Below, in pieces: positions 1 to 11,428 of a stretch of DNA of 64,000 bases (within the stretch, counting starts at the first letter, position 1; each line of letters begins with the position of its first letter). The stretch lies in the NCBI RefSeq assembly GCF_014653175.1, contig NZ_BNAG01000003.1:434001-498000 (forward strand), written 5' to 3'. The position numbers and the translations under genes are program-made. The notes below the pieces were generated by a model. That model saw only the letters and a list, made by a program, of their open reading frames with translations, was not told where the DNA came from and searched no databases. Origin of the DNA: Roseivirga thermotolerans (GTDB lineage: Bacteria > Bacteroidota > Bacteroidia > Cytophagales > Cyclobacteriaceae).

Positions 1-1927
1 TTAGTCCGTTAGTTATTTCACTGCTTTTCATAAATAGGTTCCACAGCAAGCCTGTCCTGTGATTTTCTATCATCAGTACAATAGGCCCCTGGTCAATGGC
101 CAGATATGAGCTGGCAACCCAGCTTTCAGTCAGGTTAAAGGCATCGTAGAAGCCATATTCTCCCCAAAGCATATCGCCCATAATGTAGTAGAAGTGTTTA
201 AGTGCCTTCATGGATTCATCGGGTGTATAGGGGAAAGACGAAAGGGCGGCTGTGGGGGTAATTACCCCCAGGTCGTTGGTGGGAGAGTGGGCAGAGTAGC
301 CCTGATGGTTGTCGCTGGCGGTAAGTCCCCAGGCGTTTTCATTATAGCCAACAAAGTTTTTGGGGTTGGCAACAGCGTATGCATAATTTATCTTGCTGTG
401 GGCTACGTTTTGATCCCAATAGTTGGCGTATTGATCTTCGAGCTGCCGCGGATCCAAGCCAAGGAAAGAGTAGTGGCTAAAGAATAGTGGCCCTCCATAG
501 GAGTAGCCTAGTGGCAAGGTGGTCCCAAAGTATTCTTCACCATTAGCCATATTGCCATTTCTGGCCCAACCCTCATGGTATACATTGGCTGAAATAGGGT
601 GGGTGGGAGAAGAAGCGGCCAGTACATAGACTATTAGCGATTCGTTCCAGCCCTGAATTTTCAGGTTCTTTTCCCAGCCTACATTGGGCGACCAATGCCA
701 GTACAATACGTTCTGGCCGCCTCTGGTGTACCAATCCCATTCTACCTCTTCCCAAAGTTCTGTAATGGTATCTATAATGGCTTTTTCCTGAGTATTGGAG
801 CCGTTGAGGTATTCTCTAACGGTGAGGAGCCCCTGAATCATAAAAGCCGTTTCTACAAGGTCGCCTCCATCGTCTGTAGCACTAAAAGGAATAGTCTTAC
901 CGGTATTGCCGTTCATCCAGTGAGGCCATACCCCATGAAAACGATCGGCATTTTTTAAGAAGTTCACAATGGTCTGGAGCCTGTCTATTCCTTGTTGCCG
1001 GCTAATAAAACCGCGTTCTATGCCTACCAGTATGGCCATAACACCAAAGCCCGAACCTCCAATGGTTACAGTATTGCCACTGCTGTTGCGCTCTCTGGCC
1101 AATCCGCTGGTAGGATGAGCAAAATCCCAGAAGTATTTAAAGGTTTGCTCCTGAACCTTGGTGAGTAATTCGCTTTCAGAGATTTGCGGAAATTTATTGG
1201 CCGGGTTTAATTGTGTGTAGAACTCCAGGGAGTACCCTTCAAAGTCTCTGCCTTCGCTGCTCTTTAATTCTTCTGAGAGGGTGATTTTATATTTTTTAAT
1301 GTAGTCTAGGGCTGTGGTTGGGGTAACGGAAACCACTCTGTTTTCATCAGAACTGCTTATGCTCACGGAGCGTCCTGTTAGCCTAAATGCTTTCTGAAAA
1401 CTTTGAAGGCTTACCCCGGTGCTAAAATTGAAGGTAATAGTGGGTTGCACACCAATGTCTTGTACTCTGGGGTTGTTGCCTACCGTTTCTCCATCTATTT
1501 CAATGGAGATTAGGCTGAGGGCTCCTGCCAGTGTTTTGAATTGAATAGTGGTGGGAGTTGTGCTTGCTCCCGCGGTGCTTTTTAGGTTTTGGTTGATGGA
1601 TATGGTGTATAGGGTGTTGTCTTTAAGTGTACCGTTAACGAGTAGTAGGGCTGATTTGCCTTGGGATGAAAGGGAGATGGTTTTTGAAACTTCGTTGTCG
1701 TTTTCACTCAATAGTATTCCTGATTGAGTAGTAGACTCATCGAGGGCAGCAGAAAATACCAAAGATATAGTTCGGTCTACAGGAACTCCTTCTGTAACAC
1801 TACCAGTGCTCAGTTCAAGGTCACCGGCAAAGGCATTTTTGAGCACAAGGGGTTCTGCGCCAGGCTCATCTTTGCTACAGGCTAGCATGCTTAAAAACAC
1901 TAAAGACAGAAGGTAGTGGAGCTTCAT
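1..1927 (-). CDS. Glycoamylase-fold lipoprotein (candidate GH144-like endo-beta-glucanase), 3' end cut by window
   Basis: Open for 642 codons with no stop before the left edge, so only the last few residues are missing. The N-terminus is a lipoprotein signal with lipobox LSMLAC (Cys17), predicting an outer-membrane lipoprotein. Two Ig-like segments (about 35-120 and 130-225) of the SbsA type, with TLYTISI and KYKITLSEELK strands, precede a glycoamylase domain (PF10091) from about residue 240 (KYFWDFAHP). That domain ends with the family hallmark YGFYDAFN near residue 591 and MIENHRTGLLW. Characterised members of this fold in Bacteroidota include GH144 endo-beta-1,2-glucanases, so cleavage of imported or surface-bound beta-glucan is inferred, not proven. 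It is the last visible gene of the SusCD locus and follows the LamG lipoprotein by 77 bases, which contain a strong hairpin. A GH3 beta-glucosidase might lie beyond the edge. Confidence 0.85.
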   Translation of the reverse strand, partial: MKLHYLLSLVFLSMLACSKDEPGAEPLVLKNAFAGDLELSTGSVTEGVPVDRTISLVFSAALDESTTQSGILLSENDNEVSKTISLSSQGKSALLLVNGTLKDNTLYTISINQNLKSTAGASTTPTTIQFKTLAGALSLISIEIDGETVGNNPRVQDIGVQPTITFNFSTGVSLQSFQKAFRLTGRSVSISSSDENRVVSVTPTTALDYIKKYKITLSEELKSSEGRDFEGYSLEFYTQLNPANKFPQISESELLTKVQEQTFKYFWDFAHPTSGLARERNSSGNTVTIGGSGFGVMAILVGIERGFISRQQGIDRLQTIVNFLKNADRFHGVWPHWMNGNTGKTIPFSATDDGGDLVETAFMIQGLLTVREYLNGSNTQEKAIIDTITELWEEVEWDWYTRGGQNVLYWHWSPNVGWEKNLKIQGWNESLIVYVLAASSPTHPISANVYHEGWARNGNMANGEEYFGTTLPLGYSYGGPLFFSHYSFLGLDPRQLEDQYANYWDQNVAHSKINYAYAVANPKNFVGYNENAWGLTASDNHQGYSAHSPTNDLGVITPTAALSSFPYTPDESMKALKHFYYIMGDMLWGEYGFYDAFNLTESWVASSYLAIDQGPIVLMIENHRTGLLWNLFMKSSEITNGL

Positions 1928-2004: not shown

Positions 2005-3780
2005 TTAGCGAGCATTAATGATTGTCTGTATTTCTGTTTGTGTAATTACACGGTCGAAAATGCGCAACTCGTCCATCACACTATGGTCGGCATTGTGTCC
2101 CCATCCGGTAAAGCGCGGAGCCCCCGACATAATGGACATAATATCGCAATCGGTCCAGTCTATGCCATCGAAAGTGCCTTCGCTTACCAGCTGACCATTG
2201 ATATAGACCTTAGCTTCTGTTTGCGATATGGTAAAGGCCATGTGAATCCAGTCTGTATTGGTAAGGGGAACATCGGCTGCATCGCCTCCATCGAACCAGC
2301 TGTCGGAGGCACCGGTACCTATATTGAGTTTAAAACGCTGCTCTCCACCCGCATTTTCTCTAAAGAATCTAAAGCCGCTGGTGCGCTTGTTCTGTGCTGT
2401 GGGGTTGGCATCGTCCGGAGGTCCTATTACCAAAATACCGGCTCTGTCCGGATCGCCATTTACCTTATACCAGAAAGAAGCGCTAAACTCATCGTTTTCA
2501 AGTGCCTCCGAAGGGAATGTCAGGTAAGAGTCGGCCGCTCCTTTGTAGGCATTGGTTCCTCTCAAACCCGATCCGGCAAAAGAAGGAGATCCCACTGCAG
2601 TAGCGTTACTGCCAGATGCTGCCTCTGTATAGTTGCCATCGAATGGCATATAGAAAATTTCACCAAATTCCCCCTGATAAGGCACATTGCCTCCTTCGTC
2701 TCTAATAATGTTCTGAATTTCGGTTTGCGAGAGTGCCTTGTTGAATAAACGGAGCTCATCCATAAAGCTTTGATCTGAAAGGTGGTTCCACGCGGTGAAC
2801 CTTGGAGCTCCTGACATAATGGATATAATGTCGCAGTTGGTCCAGTCTACTCCTGCAAACGCTCCTGTTTTCACTACCTGACCGTTTATGTATACGGTGG
2901 CCTCTGACTGAGAAATGGTAAAGGCCATGTGCACCCATTCGTCTTTGGTGGGGTCTACATCGGCCGCAGCGCCTCCATCGAACCAGCTATCGGAGGCACC
3001 GGTACCCACATTGAGTTTAAAGCGTTGTTTGCCTCCTGCATTTTCTCTGAAGAAACGGAAACCGGCCTTTCTGTTGTTCGGGTTGGTAGGGTTGGCTTCA
3101 TCGGGTGGCCCAATAACCAATACACCGGCTCTGTCAGGAGTTGCATTTACCTTCATCCAGAAAACAGCACTGAATTCATCTTCCAACAGGCCATTGGTTG
3201 GGAAAGTAAGGTACGACCCGCTGGCACCTGCAAGAGCATTACCACCAACTTTCCCCTGTCCGGCAAAGCCCATGTTGCCTACTTCCGTAGGGTAGGTTAC
3301 GCTTACCAGCTCTATGTTGTCACCATCAAAAGGCATGTAGAATATTTCTCCATCATATTTGGCCTGATAAGGTGGTACTTTGGAGAAATTCACGCTTCTG
3401 GTAGTGGTTTTACCGTCAATGTCGGTGGCTACTATAGAGAGTGTATGATCACCGTCTACCAATTCTTCGTAGAGGTATTCGCCTACAAAACGTCTGTAGT
3501 CTTTAAAATCGCTGTAGCTAACAATTTCGTTGTCGTTCAACCTCACTGAGATGTTGTCTACTTCGATGTCGTCAGTCACCTCAAATTGAATGTTTATGGA
3601 GGTTACCGATTCGTAGACCTGAATTTGGGTGCCCTCAGTAGGGTAGGAGATGGTGACGGCCGGTGCCGACTCGTCTGCACCGGGGTCAACCGCCTCTATT
3701 TCGTCTATAAAGCTGTTGTCGCAACCCACCAATACGAGTAGCAGGGCGAAGCTTGTTACGATTGATTTAAATAGTTTCAT
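2005..3780 (-). CDS. Surface lipoprotein with Ig-like domain and two tandem LamG domains (SusE/SGBP position)
   Basis: The start at 3780 gives a clean lipoprotein signal (MKLFKSIVTSF, lipobox LVLVGC, Cys20) and leaves 16 bases to the susD stop; an in-frame start at 3807 would overlap susD. Mature order is an Ig-like domain (about residues 35-125, APAVTISYPTEG to TTTRSVNFS) and two concanavalin-like LamG_3 domains (about 140-365 and 375-591). The LamG copies are strikingly alike, sharing FRFFRENAGG, GTGASDSWFDGG and SIMSGAPRF, and each ends in a MDELR/F strand. The position right after susD is where surface glycan-binding proteins are found in Sus-like systems, so a role in capturing the glycan at the cell surface is inferred. 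LamG can also be a catalytic laminarinase-like fold, but no E-x-D-x-x-E glucanase motif is evident. Confidence 0.85.
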   Translation of the reverse strand: MKLFKSIVTSFALLLVLVGCDNSFIDEIEAVDPGADESAPAVTISYPTEGTQIQVYESVTSINIQFEVTDDIEVDNISVRLNDNEIVSYSDFKDYRRFVGEYLYEELVDGDHTLSIVATDIDGKTTTRSVNFSKVPPYQAKYDGEIFYMPFDGDNIELVSVTYPTEVGNMGFAGQGKVGGNALAGASGSYLTFPTNGLLEDEFSAVFWMKVNATPDRAGVLVIGPPDEANPTNPNNRKAGFRFFRENAGGKQRFKLNVGTGASDSWFDGGAAADVDPTKDEWVHMAFTISQSEATVYINGQVVKTGAFAGVDWTNCDIISIMSGAPRFTAWNHLSDQSFMDELRLFNKALSQTEIQNIIRDEGGNVPYQGEFGEIFYMPFDGNYTEAASGSNATAVGSPSFAGSGLRGTNAYKGAADSYLTFPSEALENDEFSASFWYKVNGDPDRAGILVIGPPDDANPTAQNKRTSGFRFFRENAGGEQRFKLNIGTGASDSWFDGGDAADVPLTNTDWIHMAFTISQTEAKVYINGQLVSEGTFDGIDWTDCDIMSIMSGAPRFTGWGHNADHSVMDELRIFDRVITQTEIQTIINAR

Positions 3781-3796
3781 AATGCTTTGTGTTTTC

Positions 3797-5338
3797 TTAG
3801 TTGCCATTGAGTTGGGTTAACAGATCCAATTGAGCCAATGGATAAGGAATGAATCGCGCAGCAGGCGTATAGGTTCTTCCATCGTGAGTCAGCTCTGAGG
3901 TGCGCTCGTAGCGCGCCAAATCGTAGAAGCGAATACCCCATTCCATCCCAAACTCAGCGAATTTTTCGTTGAGTACTTCATTGAGAGTTACTCCGCTAAT
4001 ATCGGGCAGCCCGGCTCTGTTGCGTACTTCGTTCACGGCATCATCGGCCGACATAACAGTGCTTGTGGCTCCATTCACCAGTGCTTCGGCATGCATGAGC
4101 AGAATTTCTGCATAGCGTATAACCAGGAAGTTCTTGTTTTCACCATATCTGGTTCTGCCCGGAGTTAACTGATTTGAGGGCAGGTAGTGCTTTCCGCTGG
4201 AGAAAATGGCTCGCGGGTTAGGCTGGTTGTCTGTTCGGCCTATTACATCGCCATCTCTGGTGGTATTGGAAACGAAGGCTGGCAGGTTGGCATAATTGGG
4301 GTCTTCCTGAATGCGCTGAATACCTTCTCTGGTAAATAAAACGCTTGTTTCCAGTCGTACAGTCTCGTTTCGGTCCAGCATAAACTTGATGTACTTCATG
4401 GTAGGCTCCCAAAAACCCCATCCACCGCTGGAACCGGCTACTGCAGGGGTCCAGTTGTTTGGTCCAAAGAAGGCATGAAGGTAGTATTCGGCTTCGCCAG
4501 AGCTCTGACCAAAGTCTGAGTACTGGAACTCCAGGAGGCTTTCGTTGCTTAGTTTCCCCGGAATTTTGAATAGCTCATAAAAATCAGGGTATAGCTCAAA
4601 GGCATTGGAGCTAATGATGGCTCCGGTGGCATCGGCAACGGCCTGGTAGTTTTTAAGCTCCAGATTGGCCATGGCTTTTACAGCCAGAGCAGTGTATCGG
4701 GTAATTCCACCCTTAATATCAGTGCGCTGGTTAGGGCGAACATTCGGAAGGAGAGGGATAGCGGCATCCATTTCTTCAGAAATGTGGGTCATTACCTCTT
4801 CGAAGCTAGAAACCGGGGTCGTATAGAGTCCATCGGTTTGCGAGCTGGTAGGGAGCAATATATTGCCCCAGAGCCTGGCTAGCTGAAAGAGTTCAAAGGC
4901 CCGCATTACGCGAATCTCTGCAATGTACTGGTCGGCCGTGGCAGGGTTGGCGGCAAACTCCTTGTACTTCTCAATTTCTTCCATTGTGGCATGAAACTTA
5001 ATGATGTCGTCATAGAAGTTGAGCCATGTGGAGTTGTACATCCAGAAAGATCTGTCGTAGCGGAAAAAGTCGGTTTCTGTGAGTGGAAACTGGTCTCCGG
5101 CTGCGTTTACATCATCGCCTCTTACGGATAGCAAAGGGAAGGTTTCCCATTGCAGAGCGTAGAGCAATTCGTAGGCTCCTGTAATAAGCTGAGCCATGTT
5201 TTCCGTTTTGGTGTAGTCTGTGTCTTCTACTAACACACGTTGTTCCAGCGGATCGTTGAGCTTGTCGTCACAGCCGGTTGCCAGTACCATGGCCAGGCTT
5301 AGTGCTGTGAGCTTCTTAACTATATTTAATGCTTTCAT
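3797..5338 (-). CDS. RagB/SusD family nutrient-uptake outer-membrane lipoprotein
   Basis: A 513-residue protein, the usual SusD size, with lipoprotein signal ending in LATGC (Cys23). The N-terminal TPR-rich SusD-like part (TKTENMAQLITGAYELLY, then IAEIRVMRAFELFQLARLWG) is followed by the C-terminal SusD/RagB domain with the typical RYAEILLMHAEA helix, AVNEVRNRAGL, and FGMEWGIRFYDLARYER. SusD proteins form the lid on the SusC barrel and bind the oligosaccharide before transport. It starts 17 bases after the susC stop, so the two are almost certainly co-transcribed. The final PLAQLDLLTQLNGN is typical of the family end. The substrate cannot be read from the sequence; the neighbouring glycoamylase suggests a beta-glucan. 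Confidence 0.96.
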   Translation of the reverse strand: MKALNIVKKLTALSLAMVLATGCDDKLNDPLEQRVLVEDTDYTKTENMAQLITGAYELLYALQWETFPLLSVRGDDVNAAGDQFPLTETDFFRYDRSFWMYNSTWLNFYDDIIKFHATMEEIEKYKEFAANPATADQYIAEIRVMRAFELFQLARLWGNILLPTSSQTDGLYTTPVSSFEEVMTHISEEMDAAIPLLPNVRPNQRTDIKGGITRYTALAVKAMANLELKNYQAVADATGAIISSNAFELYPDFYELFKIPGKLSNESLLEFQYSDFGQSSGEAEYYLHAFFGPNNWTPAVAGSSGGWGFWEPTMKYIKFMLDRNETVRLETSVLFTREGIQRIQEDPNYANLPAFVSNTTRDGDVIGRTDNQPNPRAIFSSGKHYLPSNQLTPGRTRYGENKNFLVIRYAEILLMHAEALVNGATSTVMSADDAVNEVRNRAGLPDISGVTLNEVLNEKFAEFGMEWGIRFYDLARYERTSELTHDGRTYTPAARFIPYPLAQLDLLTQLNGN

Positions 5339-5355: not shown

Positions 5356-8300
5356 TTAAAACTTAATGTTCAAACCAAGGGTGTATACCGCAGGAATTGG
5401 GTAAGTCTGTCTGTCTATTCCGTTGGCTACTTCCGGGTTAAATCCATTGTAGTTAAAGACAGTTAATGGACGCTCTGCCGTAAAGGTTATGCGGGCGTCA
5501 GGGATATCCGTGCCTAATACGGTTTTGTTACGAATGTTGTAGGCCAGGCGCACGTTCTGAATTCTGAAGTATGAACCGTCTTCCACGAAATAATCGCTCA
5601 TGCTCTGGTTCCAGCCTTTTCTTAAACCTGCGGCCGAAGGATACTTGTTTGAAGTACCCTCGCCTGTCCAAAGGTTGGTGGCCAGTTCTGCATCAATGTT
5701 AGTATCGGTAGTGAAAATGATTTCACCTCTTTTACGGTTGAGAATGCTATGTCCTGATTGTCCCTGGAAATCGGCCGAAAAATCGAAGTTCTTATAACTA
5801 ACCGCCAGGTTGAATCCATAGGTTAGCGTGGGTAAGAAAGAGCCCAATACCACACGATCCTGATCGTCTATCACACCGTCACCGTTCTGATCTTTGTATC
5901 GGAAATCTCCGGGCTCAATGCCCGAATCGTTAATGAACTCAGCGGTATATCCACTGTTGTTGATTTCGTTCTGGTTTTGGAAAATACCATCGGTTTCATA
6001 TCCAAAGAATGCCTGTAGAGGCTGCCCTACAATAGAACGCTGACGGAATTCGGCCTGACCACCATCGAGGTATTGAGGGCCGCCAAGTGTGAGCACTTCG
6101 TTGTTTAGTGTGGCAAAGTTTCCGCCAACACGGTAGCTGATTCCGTTGGCGAGCTCATCGGACCAGTTCATGGCCACTTCAATACCGGAGTTTCTTATTC
6201 CGGCCGCACTTCTTCTTACATTTTCTCTAATGAGTGGGAGAATGATGGTTACGGCTGCATCTTTAGTGTCTCTCTGAAAATAATCAGCTTCAACTGATAG
6301 TCTTTCGTTGAACATTCTTGAGCTTACACCTATATTAAGTTCTTCGGTTGTTTCCCAACGATCCACATAGTCATAGGTAGGAATAACCACATTACCCGGA
6401 ACTCTCACTCCATCTATAGCCAGGAATCTCTGTTCTACTGTTGGGGCACCTACAGATGGTGTAACGCCTGCGTTGCCAAGTTGTCCCCAGCCACCTCTTA
6501 TTTTAAGGAAGTCTACACCGGAAAGGTTAAAGAAGTTCTCCTCTGAAAGTACCCATCCGGCACCAATGGTAAAGAAGTTGCCCCACTTTTGTTGGAAAAT
6601 GTTGGTGCCATCTCTTCGGTAAGTTCCGTAAAGAAGATATCGGTCGTCATAGTTATAGGCCAAACGGGTAAAATAAGATGAACCGTAGGTTTTAGCACCA
6701 AAGTCGCCAACTCCACCCTGATCGATAACATCGGCCAGAGAAATGTACCACAGTTCTTCCTGAATACGGCTTGGTGAAGGGTCTAACTCCGTACCTCTGG
6801 CAAAGAGCCCTTCAGTACTTTCGCTTCGGAAAGAATAACCGGCCACTGCAGTAATGTTGTGCAGGCCAATGTTTTGCTTGTAAGTAAGGTAATTGTCCCA
6901 AATTTGGTTGAATGATGTAGCGTGGCTTCTTCTTATAGAAGACTGAAAATCAGTAACTCCATCGCTATACTCAAAATTGACATTTCTAGAGTTGATGTTC
7001 GAATAGCTGTAGTTATAAGCGGTTCGGAAAGTCAGGCGATCTGGAATAAGGTCTGCCTCTGCATAGAAGTTGGCCAGAAATTTACCGATTTTATTACGGT
7101 TGTCATTGTAGAGGAGGTCGTACATTGGGTTTTGAGAACCTCTATAACCAAGGGTTTGGGCATTGGAAAGCCTAACCGGAGTTGCGGCAGTGTTCAGGTC
7201 GTCATATACAGGCAATATGGGTACAGCAAAGTAAGTCTTAAACCAAACCGAGTTTTCGGCCACATATTGGGTTCCGTTGCTTATGTTAATGTTTCCACCT
7301 ACTCTCAGGTTTTCGTTTACATCGAAGTCTATTTTAGACCGTAGGTTTAACCGCTCATATTCATTGCGGGTGCTTTTGAGTAGGCCGTCTTGCTGAAAAT
7401 AATTGACTCCCAGTGAGTAACGTGTGTTGTCACTACCTCCGCTTACTGTTAAGGAGTGGTTTTGAATGGGGGCAGCAGTTTCCAAAACCTGGCCGTACCA
7501 ATCGGTATTTACATTGGGTACGTTGGGGTTAATGCGGCTGCGACCAAAGCGCTGGAAGGCGTTGTCTATAAAGGCTGCATCGGCACTGGATCCAGTGGCC
7601 AGAGCATACTCCGTAAATTGTTGGGCATTGGCCAGCTTAAGTACATTTTGGGCAACTTGCACACCGTAGTATCCATCGTACACTACCTCGGCCTGCTTAT
7701 TATAGCTACCCGACTTTGTTTCGATAAGTATAACTCCATTGGAAGCTCTTACCCCATAAATTGCCGAAGCCGAAGCATCTTTTAGAACTGAAATGGTTTC
7801 AATATCCGCTGGGTTAAGGAAGTCTATGCTTTCGAAGAACATTCCATCTACCACATAAAGAGGGGCTGCATTGCCTTCAAGCGAGCCAATTCCTCTCACC
7901 CTAACGGTTGGGGCTGCTCCGGGAGCACCACTACTTACTATTTGCAAGCCGGGCACTTTACCCTGAAGGGCCTGCATAGCCTGGGCAGTAGGTGTTTTAT
8001 TTATTTCATCGGTTTTTACGGTTGAAATGGAGGAGGTAAGGTCTTTTTGTTCCTGACTACCATAACCAATAACTACCACCTCGCCCAATTCGCTAACATT
8101 GGGGTTAAGTGTAATGTTGATGGTGGTTTGATTACCCACTACCACCTCTTGTGTTACAAAGCCAACAAAGCTAAAGACCAATACTGCGTCTTTGCCAGAG
8201 ACCGTTAACCGATACCGACCATTCATATCGGTTGTCATACCATTGTTAGTGTTCTTTTCGCGTACCGTTACTGTAGGCAACGGCTGTCCGTCTTCCGAAG

Positions 8301-8409
8301 ATATGACGGTTCCCGTTACTACCACCGATTGTGCCCAGGCTGGCTGTGCCAGCGCACACATCAGCAGTACCGGGAGTACTTTTAAGTACGAGCGTAGAGT
8401 TTTTTTCAT
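5356..8409 (-). CDS. SusC/RagA family TonB-linked outer-membrane transporter
   Basis: 1017 residues. A signal peptide (about 1-26, ending AQPAWAQ) is followed by a CarboxypepD_reg-like domain (about 28-110, TGTVISSEDGQPLPTVTVREK), the family signature EVVVIGYG, and a plug domain (about 120-235) with LQGKVPGLQI, VRVRGIGS, APLYVVDGM and ISVLKDASASAIYG. The rest is the 22-strand barrel, ending in an aromatic-containing strand (VYTLGLNIKF). There is no N-terminal STN (secretin/TonB short) domain, so it is not of the type that signals through a FecR-like anti-sigma factor. With SusD it would import oligosaccharides energised by TonB. It lies 260 bases downstream of the receptor-like gene at 8670-10523 in the same direction, and that gap holds several dyads, so it is probably the regulated promoter of the locus. 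Confidence 0.97.
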   Translation of the reverse strand: MKKTLRSYLKVLPVLLMCALAQPAWAQSVVVTGTVISSEDGQPLPTVTVREKNTNNGMTTDMNGRYRLTVSGKDAVLVFSFVGFVTQEVVVGNQTTINITLNPNVSELGEVVVIGYGSQEQKDLTSSISTVKTDEINKTPTAQAMQALQGKVPGLQIVSSGAPGAAPTVRVRGIGSLEGNAAPLYVVDGMFFESIDFLNPADIETISVLKDASASAIYGVRASNGVILIETKSGSYNKQAEVVYDGYYGVQVAQNVLKLANAQQFTEYALATGSSADAAFIDNAFQRFGRSRINPNVPNVNTDWYGQVLETAAPIQNHSLTVSGGSDNTRYSLGVNYFQQDGLLKSTRNEYERLNLRSKIDFDVNENLRVGGNINISNGTQYVAENSVWFKTYFAVPILPVYDDLNTAATPVRLSNAQTLGYRGSQNPMYDLLYNDNRNKIGKFLANFYAEADLIPDRLTFRTAYNYSYSNINSRNVNFEYSDGVTDFQSSIRRSHATSFNQIWDNYLTYKQNIGLHNITAVAGYSFRSESTEGLFARGTELDPSPSRIQEELWYISLADVIDQGGVGDFGAKTYGSSYFTRLAYNYDDRYLLYGTYRRDGTNIFQQKWGNFFTIGAGWVLSEENFFNLSGVDFLKIRGGWGQLGNAGVTPSVGAPTVEQRFLAIDGVRVPGNVVIPTYDYVDRWETTEELNIGVSSRMFNERLSVEADYFQRDTKDAAVTIILPLIRENVRRSAAGIRNSGIEVAMNWSDELANGISYRVGGNFATLNNEVLTLGGPQYLDGGQAEFRQRSIVGQPLQAFFGYETDGIFQNQNEINNSGYTAEFINDSGIEPGDFRYKDQNGDGVIDDQDRVVLGSFLPTLTYGFNLAVSYKNFDFSADFQGQSGHSILNRKRGEIIFTTDTNIDAELATNLWTGEGTSNKYPSAAGLRKGWNQSMSDYFVEDGSYFRIQNVRLAYNIRNKTVLGTDIPDARITFTAERPLTVFNYNGFNPEVANGIDRQTYPIPAVYTLGLNIKF

Positions 8410-8470
8410 GCCTTAATCATTTTGTTTCAAATAGGTAATGTCGTTTCAGTAAATCGATTGATATACGTAG

Positions 8471-8486
8471 AGTAATTGTAATTACT
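8471..8486. promoter_or_regulatory. Perfect 7-2-7 dyad upstream of susC
   Basis: AGTAATTGTAATTACT is a perfect inverted repeat (7-bp arms, 2-base centre) centred about 70 bases upstream of the susC start. Position and symmetry fit an operator for a dimeric regulator. No clear TAnnTTTG element was found in this gap. Confidence 0.45.
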
Positions 8487-8533
8487 TTCTTAGAAAATGC
8501 GCAAGTTCTCTGGTGTGAAAAGTTGATTTTTGG

Positions 8534-8547
8534 CCCTTAAATAAGGG
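8534..8547. promoter_or_regulatory. Perfect 6-2-6 dyad upstream of susC
   Basis: CCCTTAAATAAGGG is a perfect dyad in the middle of the regulator-susC gap. It could be an operator, or the stem of a weak terminator of the regulator gene, but no U-tract follows it on the minus strand. Confidence 0.35.
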
Positions 8548-8615
8548 GTAAAAAGATTGTTTTTTTGCGCGTTAGTCACATTAAAAAATTAGCTTTTAAA
8601 GCATTTTCAAGGGGA

Positions 8616-8626
8616 AAACGTTTGCA
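8616..8626. promoter_or_regulatory. LacI-type operator-like core upstream of susC
   Basis: AAACGTTTGCA contains the self-complementary core AAACGTTT with a central CG, the form typical of LacI/GalR-family operators. The same 11-mer occurs upstream of the alanine dehydrogenase gene (12743-12753). No LacI-family gene is in the window. Confidence 0.3.
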
Positions 8627-8669
8627 TGTTGCGCTTAAAAAACAAAGTGAGAATGTCAACCAGAAACGA

Positions 8670-10523
8670 CTAGTTGAGATGCGAGCTAAAGAGATTGTGG
8701 ATGAGCACGGTTGAGGAGTTTTTAGAGTCGCCATCATATACCTTTTCAATCTTCTTCTTGAAGTTCCAAATGGTGTTCCTTCTCAACTCCAACATTTCCG
8801 AAAGCTGATCGAGCGTATACTCCTTCTGCCGGTTGTTGGTAATGTACAGAATGAAGAAAGCCTTTTCAATGGGGAATTTTATTCTATGGAATATGGTGTT
8901 GCTGGTTACCGACTCGTTGTAGCCGCACTTGGAGCAGCGTCTCATAAACTTGGTCTTACCTTCAAAGTATTTGGTATTGCCGCATTTGGAACAGTGATAG
9001 CCATTGCCCCATTTTAGTTTTTCTAAAAAACGATAACAGGTGAGCTCGTTCGGGAAAATTTTCTGGAATTGCTCCAGGTTTAGGTTCTTGTTGATGAGCC
9101 TGTCTTGCAGAATCTCTTTGATGTTGTTTTTGAGCTTCCAGTTGTCCAGATCGAGTTTGGAATTGATGGCGTTGATCTCCTTGGTTTGCTCAATGAGCTT
9201 TTGGTTGGTGTTGGCCAGAAGCAGGTTTTTTTCTTCGAGCTGCCGCGTTCTTTCTTTGATTTTTTCTTCCAGTTCTTTGTTTACCCGGTCTTTGAGTTCG
9301 GCATTTTCCTTTTGCTGATTAATTATGCGTTTGAAGGCTTTATCGCGGTTTGATTTCAGAATTCGCACTCTGTCGCTAAGTGCAAAGGTGAGAAAGATCA
9401 TCTCTAGCAAGAAACAAATATGCAAACTGTAGTAGGTGATGGTGGTAAACGGAATAACCGACAAATAGAGTAAGGCCTTGGCCAAAAATCCCAAAAAGAG
9501 CACGCCATAGGCCACAACGAAGAAACGGGCCGGCTTGTAACCTTTTTTCCATACGTGAATACTCGAGTAGAATATAAGCGAAAGGGGAATGATTTCTATG
9601 TTGCGGTATTCGAACAGGCTATGATCGAAAAGCAATACGTATATAAACAGTGCCGTGCGCAATACCAGTGCCCAGGTGAGTGCTCTATCGATTATAGGGG
9701 CCTTTATGTTGGTGCTTAAAAAGCGCTTGGAAAAGAGCAACGACCAGAAAATCAATGAAAACAGTGCTGTACCATAGGCAATCTGATTCCATTCGGGCCA
9801 TTGAGGCCATAAGAACTGATAAGCAATACCATCGACACACATGGCATATACGCCTACACTAAGAATGTAAAAAGTGTAGAAGAGGTACTTCTGCTCGCGG
9901 ATGGCAAAGTATATGAGCATGTTGTAAATGGATATGATGAAGATCATACCATAGAAAATACCATAAAGAAAGTACTCATTGAGCGAATAGCGCACAAACG
10001 CATTGACCGTACGAATGTTGATGCGCACATCGGCATAGGTGTGCGATTGTATTTTGAAGTAGAGATTTTGCTGGCCTTTTATGCTCGTGTCTATGATCCA
10101 CTGAAAGTTTTTGTGCTCAAAAGGTTTTTGGTTGAAGGCTATGGCATCTCCAACGTGGTCTTGCTCGTAGCTACCGTCTGCCGTAGGGAAGTAGGCCCAG
10201 ATATGGTCTATGGTTTGGTCGTAGAACTCCAGCATCCACTGTTTGTCCAGGCTGTTGGCAATGAGCAGAGGTACTTTTACCCAATAGGTGCAGTCTACAC
10301 AATAATCCTTGGGTTTATAGCCCGGATTAATAATGAATTGTTTTTGTGAGTTGACTACCTCCTGAAATGTCATTGTGCCGGTGCTGTCTACCAAAATGGG
10401 GAGGTCATTGAAGGCGAGCAACACCTGTTCGCTGGAGTTGTCTATAAAGATGCGTTCTCTTTCATTGCCCTGAAAGAGGAGCATTACGAACATGCCAAGA
10501 AAACCACTTTTAATCAATGCCAT
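8670..10523 (-). CDS. 7TMR-DISM receptor fused to coiled coil and IS1595-type transposase zinc-ribbon/HTH head
   Basis: 617 residues. Residues 1-18 are a signal or anchor segment. About 25-175 resemble the extracellular DISMED2 sensor domain (YWVKVPLLI, WMLEFYDQTIDHIWAYFP, NLYFKIQSHTYADVRI). About 183-385 form the seven-helix 7TMR-DISM membrane block (YGIFYGMIFIISIYNMLIYF). About 387-475 are a charged coiled coil. The C-terminus is not a kinase or GGDEF domain. It matches the N-terminal head of IS1595-family transposases: CYRFLEKLKWGNGYHC, a zinc ribbon with Cys511, Cys514, Cys530 and Cys533 (two CSKCG knuckles), SVTSNTIFHRIKFP, and a helical segment LDQLSEMLELRRNTIWNFKKK (about 571-591). The DDE nuclease domain is absent. 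It precedes susC in the same direction, so a membrane-bound regulator of the locus is inferred. The domain calls are by eye, and DNA binding is untested. Confidence 0.85.
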   Translation of the reverse strand: MALIKSGFLGMFVMLLFQGNERERIFIDNSSEQVLLAFNDLPILVDSTGTMTFQEVVNSQKQFIINPGYKPKDYCVDCTYWVKVPLLIANSLDKQWMLEFYDQTIDHIWAYFPTADGSYEQDHVGDAIAFNQKPFEHKNFQWIIDTSIKGQQNLYFKIQSHTYADVRINIRTVNAFVRYSLNEYFLYGIFYGMIFIISIYNMLIYFAIREQKYLFYTFYILSVGVYAMCVDGIAYQFLWPQWPEWNQIAYGTALFSLIFWSLLFSKRFLSTNIKAPIIDRALTWALVLRTALFIYVLLFDHSLFEYRNIEIIPLSLIFYSSIHVWKKGYKPARFFVVAYGVLFLGFLAKALLYLSVIPFTTITYYSLHICFLLEMIFLTFALSDRVRILKSNRDKAFKRIINQQKENAELKDRVNKELEEKIKERTRQLEEKNLLLANTNQKLIEQTKEINAINSKLDLDNWKLKNNIKEILQDRLINKNLNLEQFQKIFPNELTCYRFLEKLKWGNGYHCSKCGNTKYFEGKTKFMRRCSKCGYNESVTSNTIFHRIKFPIEKAFFILYITNNRQKEYTLDQLSEMLELRRNTIWNFKKKIEKVYDGDSKNSSTVLIHNLFSSHLN

Positions 10524-10615
10524 AGACCTGAGTTAGGCTGTGCTTTGCAAAATACAAATTTTGAAAGCATCCTGTTTTTTGGAACAGAATGTCTGTGAAA
10601 AGGCCGAATGGCTAT

Positions 10616-11428
10616 TTATATGGCTACACGGGCCTTGCCGTCTTGCCGCTTTGCATGATTTTTACGCTGAATATTCCCTACCATTTTTGTTACTCTTCCT
10701 CGTGAAAGCAGGCGTGGCAAGAAAGCGCTCAACTTATTCCAAATGCCAGGGACCAATACTACTTTACCGTGCATGAGCCCCTGGAATCCGAAGGTGGCAA
10801 CGGTGTGTGCATCGGCAATATTGAATTTTATATTAGGGTTTTCGTTGCCATTGGCTTTGGCAAAATTGGTACGGGTCATGCCGGGGCAAAGTACACTCAC
10901 ATGTATGCCATGCGAGCGAACCTCATTGGCCAATGCTTGCGAAAAGTTGAGTAAATAGGCTTTAGAAGCGTGATAAGTAGACATGAGCGGCCCGGGTACA
11001 AATGCCGCTACCGAGGCATTGTTGAGAATGTAGCCTTTGCCTCTTCGAATCATGCCCGGTAAAAATCGCTTAATCAGATCTGTGGCAGTAACCATATGTA
11101 CCTGAAGCATGGCCCGATCTTTTTCCCAACTGCTTTGGGCAAAATATCCAAAGTTACCAAAGCCGGCATTGTTGAATAGCAGCTCTACTTCAATCTCCTG
11201 AAACTGTGCAAAACCGAAGATATTGGAGGCAGCGTCTTCGGTAGAAAGGTCTTGGGTAAATACTTCAATCTGAACAGAGAAAGAGCTTAGTAGCGTTTCT
11301 TTGGTCTGTATAAGGTGGGGTTCATTTATATCTACTAAAAGCAAATTGTAACCTTGAGCGGCAGCAATTCTGGCAAACTCAAATCCAATACCTCCAGCGG
11401 CTCCGGTAATTAATGCCGTCTTTTTCAT
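10616..11428 (-). CDS. Short-chain dehydrogenase/reductase (SDR)
   Basis: 270 residues with the classical SDR layout. The cofactor motif TGAAGGIG is at residues 8-15, NNAG at 86-89, and the catalytic set is Ser139, Tyr152 and Lys156 (YHASK). CPGMTRTNF follows at the usual distance. After the core there is a basic tail rich in Arg and Lys (SRGRVTKMVGNIQRKNHAKR). The substrate cannot be predicted; this subgroup (DltE-like, ketoreductase-like) includes enzymes acting on lipids and small ketones. A TAnnTTTG-like box (TATTTTTG) sits only five bases upstream of the start, which would give a near-leaderless transcript if used. Confidence 0.93.
   Translation of the reverse strand: MKKTALITGAAGGIGFEFARIAAAQGYNLLLVDINEPHLIQTKETLLSSFSVQIEVFTQDLSTEDAASNIFGFAQFQEIEVELLFNNAGFGNFGYFAQSSWEKDRAMLQVHMVTATDLIKRFLPGMIRRGKGYILNNASVAAFVPGPLMSTYHASKAYLLNFSQALANEVRSHGIHVSVLCPGMTRTNFAKANGNENPNIKFNIADAHTVATFGFQGLMHGKVVLVPGIWNKLSAFLPRLLSRGRVTKMVGNIQRKNHAKRQDGKARVAI

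Follow-up and report, generated by a model that had tools for sequence, protein, structure and literature searches.

The window, by which is meant the whole stretch of 64,000 nucleotides of Roseivirga thermotolerans DNA that was analysed, carries on its minus strand, in this order, a regulator gene, susC, susD, a gene for a LamG-domain protein and one for a PF10091 enzyme. The regulator gene (positions 8670–10523, stop codon included), whose strand the initial annotation did not give, starts with ATG and encodes 617 amino acids in one open frame that is uninterrupted throughout. The next gene, at 5356–8409, encodes a SusC-like TonB-dependent receptor with the domains PF07715, PF13715 and PF00593, and is likely the first target gene of the regulator; as a measure of scale, the 4.2 Mb of the whole genome contain 32 susC-like matches. 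Further downstream are a SusD-like protein (3797–5338, PF07980), a LamG-domain protein (2005–3807, PF13385 in two stretches and PF17957) that is inferred to be a probable surface glycan binder, and an enzyme whose gene extends beyond the window (2–1927, PF10091 with E 6.3e-78, and PF13205), all on the minus strand. We take the PF10091 enzyme to be of the GH144 type. Enzymes of GH144 are beta-1,2-glucanases (PMC12102758). A search of positions 8300–8750 against Rfam gave no RNA element match at E≤1.

Three Pfam domains are found in the regulator, all scoring over their cut-offs. The N-terminal part is a 7TMR-DISMED2 periplasmic sensor (PF07696, residues 41–170, positions 10014–10403, E 6.4e-21) followed by a 7TM core (PF07695, residues 183–385, positions 9369–9977, E 1.7e-43), and together with the seven TM-type helices in the AlphaFold2 model this agrees with the initial annotation, which had described a 7TMR-DISM receptor. 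The third domain is an IS1595-type zinc ribbon (PF12760 Zn_ribbon_IS1595, residues 491–535, positions 8919–9053, E 4.7e-10, 39.7 bits against a cut-off of 25.4), found inside residues 485–600 where a match of this kind had been foreseen, and the ribbon cysteines Cys511, Cys514, Cys530 and Cys533 are at the positions given to them beforehand. Between core and ribbon, residues 386–477 (9093–9368) form a helix in the AlphaFold2 model and are inferred to be a coiled coil. HTH-like helices are predicted at residues 549–600 (8724–8879), a part that corresponds to the start of IS1595 transposases in NCBIfam transpos_IS1595 (NF033547), with E 0.0013 and under the cut-off of that model. No DDE, kinase, receiver, GGDEF, AraC or LytTR family was matched in Pfam at E≤1, the DDE nuclease PF12762 included, and the claimed layout of an IS1595 transposase N-terminus lacking the nuclease is thus upheld. 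PF19904 (DUF6377), which we take to stand for SusR, gave no match either at E≤1.

The AlphaFold2 model of the whole regulator (54 sequences, pLDDT 81, pTM 0.60) has a beta-rich sensor, the seven TM-type helices and an unbroken helix 366–477, whose beginning is TM7 and which includes the presumed coiled coil. At the C-terminal end there are ribbon strands at 519–538 and helices at 552–563, 571–578 and 582–598, and this end modelled alone (142 residues) reached pLDDT 82 and pTM 0.75. A fold search with the head gave 394 matches at E≤10 and none at E≤1e-3. The best of these non-significant matches are to NudC zinc ribbons, and LuxR-type HTHs rank further down. A search of the PDB by sequence gave no relevant match. 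Two other proteins of the same genome (L002 and L003) match the 7TM part of the regulator with 21–26% identity, and their match ends ahead of the head.

The regulator belongs to a conserved family. It is 82% identical to a protein of Roseivirga spongicola (Bacteroidota, Cytophagales), and 90 full-length members were found in the fetched loci with the one in the window counted, the other 89 being 594–703 aa long. A frameshift fusion was rejected on this ground and on that of the single frame, in line with the earlier reading of the region as one gene. An alignment of 147 proteins, which leaves out the two shorter members L207 and L208, has seven invariant columns, and four of them are the ribbon cysteines. 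Members with at least 43% identity to the regulator are here called clade A. PF07695 and the PF07696/DISMED sensor are each present in 36/36 clade A and 23/23 clade B relatives, and PF12760 at E≤1e-3 in 31/36 of the former but only 8/23 of the latter. The last 233 residues are matched in 87 of 148 family genomes, some of these matches being transposases; a full-length member occurs in 10/395 genomes of a phylum sample, in four family groups, and the head is matched in 78/194 genomes of an order sample, with at most 14 matches per genome, some of them transposase-sized. From a GTDB scan the best 80 of 493 relatives were kept. Paralogue expansions are seen in G639, G708, G588 and other genomes, with up to 14 head matches per genome, many of them in frames of 600–670 residues.

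The head is 40–47% identical to living IS1595-family transposases, and PF12762 was present in 7/8 short relatives checked. For a tree of the head, 188 domain sequences were reduced to 135 at 80% identity and compared over 122 columns; it is midpoint rooted and has many weak forks, with the bootstrap not fully settled. One branch, with support 100/92 and present in 100% of 200 bootstrap trees, groups 107 receptor heads with a free-standing protein (L142, positions 1194–1607 of its locus) of 137 residues, which has its own start and stop and contains nothing beyond the zinc ribbon and helices of the IS1595 type, without DDE. The 27 transposase-type rows fall outside this branch in successive layers; they were labelled transposases by length, and in the five rows that were checked (L126, L131, L141, L143 and L209) a DDE domain was found in all five. 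The free-standing protein was at first also labelled a transposase by length, which requires two changes in the tree, and the receptor heads constitute a single clade because it is read as a non-transposase. With the heads as one clade nested among IS1595 transposases, one capture suffices, so a single domestication of a transposase head would be enough on the present tree but is not proved. The tree, a comparison of sequences, backs the view that the DNA-binding head goes back to transposases of the IS1595 type, as had been inferred for this part of the protein.

The identity to living transposases speaks for a recent chance fusion or a decaying transposon copy, and such an event was weighed. 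It is refuted by the conservation of the family, with 90 full-length members and a wide spread, and we can hardly entertain it any longer: the head lacks a DDE domain, none of the 20 inverted repeats found in 8400–10800 flanks the regulator gene, and no further PF12760 match exists in the genome.

The head also occurs with other sensors. In three proteins of about 1000 residues (L222, positions 6506–9709; L223, 6403–9393; L225, 8829–11873), Reg_prop repeats and a Y_Y_Y domain precede the IS1595 ribbon, without kinase and AraC domains; the ribbon of L225 is under its cut-off, and L224 is of like length. The first of them is followed by susC and susD. Reg_prop and Y_Y_Y presumably represent the sensor set of HTCS regulators, and this swapping of sensors speaks for a role of the head as an output module.

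In clade A, susC is the next gene on the same strand in 47/56 family loci and in 70/78 GTDB loci that have a next gene, two sets that overlap and in which ORFs under 150 aa were skipped, and the proposed link of the homologues to susC-type loci therefore holds for this clade. The tie to susC is looser in distant members than in the close clade: below 35% identity it is the next gene in 6/38 order members and in 0/24 family members with a next gene. The enzymes differ as well, with names of enzyme clusters assigned from representatives. PF10091 enzymes are found in 49/56 clade A loci and 0/27 clade B loci, GH10 in 13/27 clade B loci against 0/56 clade A loci, and GH43 in 11/27 clade B loci. Several clade B receptors (L104, L112, L114, L115 and others) adjoin genes for GH10, GH43 and esterases. 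Of ten genus genomes searched, two have a full-length regulator; the susC search took in nine of them, G057 being left out, and a full-length susC of 77–100% identity is present in the same two, while the other seven have no near-full-length susC match above 36%.

A new observation is a direct repeat in the gap between regulator and susC, TTGTTnTTaAaGCG, that is present in two copies 64–66 bp apart in most gaps. In the window, copy 1 (TTGTTTTTTAAGCGCAACAT) is at 8626–8645 with 22.3 bits and copy 2 (ATGTGACTAACGCGCAAAAA) at 8562–8581 with 15.0 bits, both on the minus strand and spaced by 64 bp, and the end of copy 2 is 152 bp ahead of the susC start codon. The pair falls inside 8410–8669, which the initial annotation had put forward as DNA for a binding assay. 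A motif search on 50 regulator-to-susC gaps (one of 51 was dropped as a near-copy) reached 344.7 as its best score, at a width of 24, compared to 109.4–122.6 in four shuffled sets, the real search having used 150 starts and the shuffles 80. In 90 whole loci, 1.56 Mb in all, a scan for pairs found 34, each at most 400 bp after a regulator; shuffled loci yielded none. Of the 34 pairs, 33 come from gaps that trained the motif model, and the only untrained one (L087) is ahead of a GH30 gene. Of 80 GTDB loci, 32 were removed for sharing a 24-mer with the training set, and the 48 left still include relatives of the training loci. A pair reaching the 20-bit threshold is present in only 18 of these 48. 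The second-best site is 63–67 bp from the best in 25/30 independent regions that could be anchored, compared to 39/47 in training, and 19/49 independent regions had no anchor. Three close relatives (L252–L254) miss the threshold with a pair that is visible but has one low-scoring copy. A strong pair of sites accompanies the regulator of Roseivirga pacifica (L264), which is 78% identical to that of the window.

Transposon ends were considered as a source of the motif and rejected: the IS ends of L123 and L126, which have end repeats, are unlike the motif and do not match its model, and the five longest repeats listed for L124 and L125 included no convincing ends. An AACGTT or AATCGTTT core, presumably LacI-like, is located at 8615–8626 in the window and in the gaps of L036, L040, L041, L048 and L054; it occurs at most 18 nt after copy 1 in 6/51 gaps and never follows copy 2.

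Outside clade A the repeat is less evident. Members under 43% identity have pairs in 3/91 loci (L087, L112 and L114), which is no enrichment and not clearly above other spacings. When the whole of the intergenic DNA in 27 clade B loci was searched, the start from the clade A motif scored 78.2, without signal, below the six best random starts (85.9–90.5). In 21 divergent upstream regions of clade B and order members a score of 79.9 was reached, against 53.5–64.4 in eight shuffles, with 150 starts for the real search and 60 for the shuffles. A TTTAAGCG-like motif is seen in some divergent upstream regions of clade B loci. This related clade B core TTTAAGCG, from the search of the 21 regions, counts as weaker evidence.

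The pattern of the window's own pair, with at most three mismatches, occurs once in its genome of 4.2 Mb. Patterns made from the consensus were run across 148 genomes at 65 and 64 bp only, and gave 10 matches at 65 bp and four at 64 bp, and reversed patterns none in the same genomes. Directly after a regulator lie 12 of the 14 matches, mostly in training loci. One of the others, in G034, lies within a coding sequence of 277 residues and is probably due to chance. The remaining match, the single one in G036 and spaced at 65 bp, is 133 bp ahead of the likely start codon of a susC that is 35% identical to that of the window, in a gap outside the training set; the regulator of this genome (L034, 62% identical) has a next gene other than susC and is half a megabase away from the match. 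The sister genome G142 has an orphan regulator like that of G036, and neither the 64-bp nor the 65-bp pattern matches in it.

These matches bear on whether the head binds the repeats at all. It might have lost DNA binding, with the receptor signalling through protein contacts and another regulator using the repeats. There are no binding data for the head, and as regulator and susC travel together (the same two of nine genus genomes hold the regulator and the close full-length susC) the repeats might be part of the susC locus instead; the clade A orphan regulators L256, L260 and L261 have no pair nearby. Against such a loss, the zinc-binding cysteines are invariant, the head is found on unrelated sensors and alone, 12 of the 14 genome-wide matches lie directly after a regulator, and the pair of G036 precedes a different susC with the regulator far off. 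We therefore find a head without DNA binding unlikely.

The reading that we prefer, and hold with good confidence, is that the regulator controls transcription of a glycan-uptake locus as a one-component protein tethered to the membrane, and uses a domesticated transposase DNA-binding domain to do so, with binding, ligand and sign of control being inferred. The evidence consists of sequence and models, and there are no binding, expression or ligand data. The DISMED2 domain would bind an oligosaccharide in the periplasm, perhaps a beta-1,2-gluco-oligosaccharide as inferred from the GH144-type enzyme, and the ligand would change the 7TM core. The continuous helix of TM7 and coiled coil might transmit the signal in a dimer, the cytoplasmic zinc-ribbon/HTH heads of which could hold both repeats, about six turns of DNA apart on one face, and the bound heads would then switch on susC, susD and the enzymes without a phosphorelay.

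The same binding is compatible with a repressor of the locus, or with a regulator whose signal is not a glycan, since the position of the repeats leaves the sign of control unfixed; ligand data for DISMED2 are lacking, and clade B and order members are often without an adjoining susC. The family loci carry PF10091, GH3, GH10, GH43 or GH30 enzymes, however, and the nearest analogues, SusR and HTCS, activate on oligosaccharides (PMC3878776), so that repression or a non-glycan signal is possible but improbable, although less so than a head without DNA binding.

For the activating glycan regulator that we favour, a wider proposal can be made, with a confidence that is only somewhat better than even: the IS1595 head may have been domesticated once and then have spread as an exchangeable output part, both joined to 7TMR-DISM and Reg_prop/Y_Y_Y sensors and standing alone, with a TTAAGCG-like core as its target. 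The clade of the window gene would have converged on SusR-like direct repeats spaced by six turns, and the proteins with this head would constitute a further class of regulators of Bacteroidota glycan loci beside SusR, HTCS and ECF/anti-sigma. If this is true, a large family of membrane-tethered regulators, with a possible role at many glycan loci of Cytophagales, goes back to a bacterial transposase DNA-binding domain that was converted perhaps only once, and a head of 140 residues with a site of 100 bp makes a small system for testing it.

Known 7TMR-DISM receptors have outputs such as kinases, cyclases and the like. The regulator shares with them the DISMED2 sensor and 7TM core, both over cut-off, but its output is a transposase head. 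No paper on this combination was found in the open-access literature among the matches listed, a weak test of absence, and it may already be present in domain databases. With IS1595-family transposases it has the zinc ribbon and following helices in common, at the identity given above, but not the DDE nuclease or the terminal repeats. The ALOG regulators of plants are likewise a family that arose from a mobile element's DNA-binding domain (PMC3537659), but of another element, fold and kingdom, and without a membrane sensor. HTCS regulators do the same job at glycan loci, but the window regulator has no histidine kinase, receiver or AraC domain of their type among its matches at E≤1, and its repeats are spaced by 64–66 bp compared to an average of 21 bp for HTCS (PMC3878776). 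The closest likeness is to the SusR-like regulators of Bacteroides, which according to the same source span the membrane. Their predicted sites are direct repeats with a spacing of 67 or 77 bp, from which its authors infer dimers placed on one side of the DNA at a distance of six or seven turns, and the DNA-binding domain of SusR is said there to resemble no other known one (PMC3878776). Both are membrane-spanning one-component regulators of susC loci with long-spaced direct repeats ahead of susC, at almost the same spacing, and they differ in the 7TMR-DISM sensor and IS1595-derived head of the window regulator. By this analogy, the best reading is that the regulator may work like SusR without being shown to be a relative of it, and the near-equal spacing would suggest that membrane-bound regulators follow a geometric rule at susC promoters.
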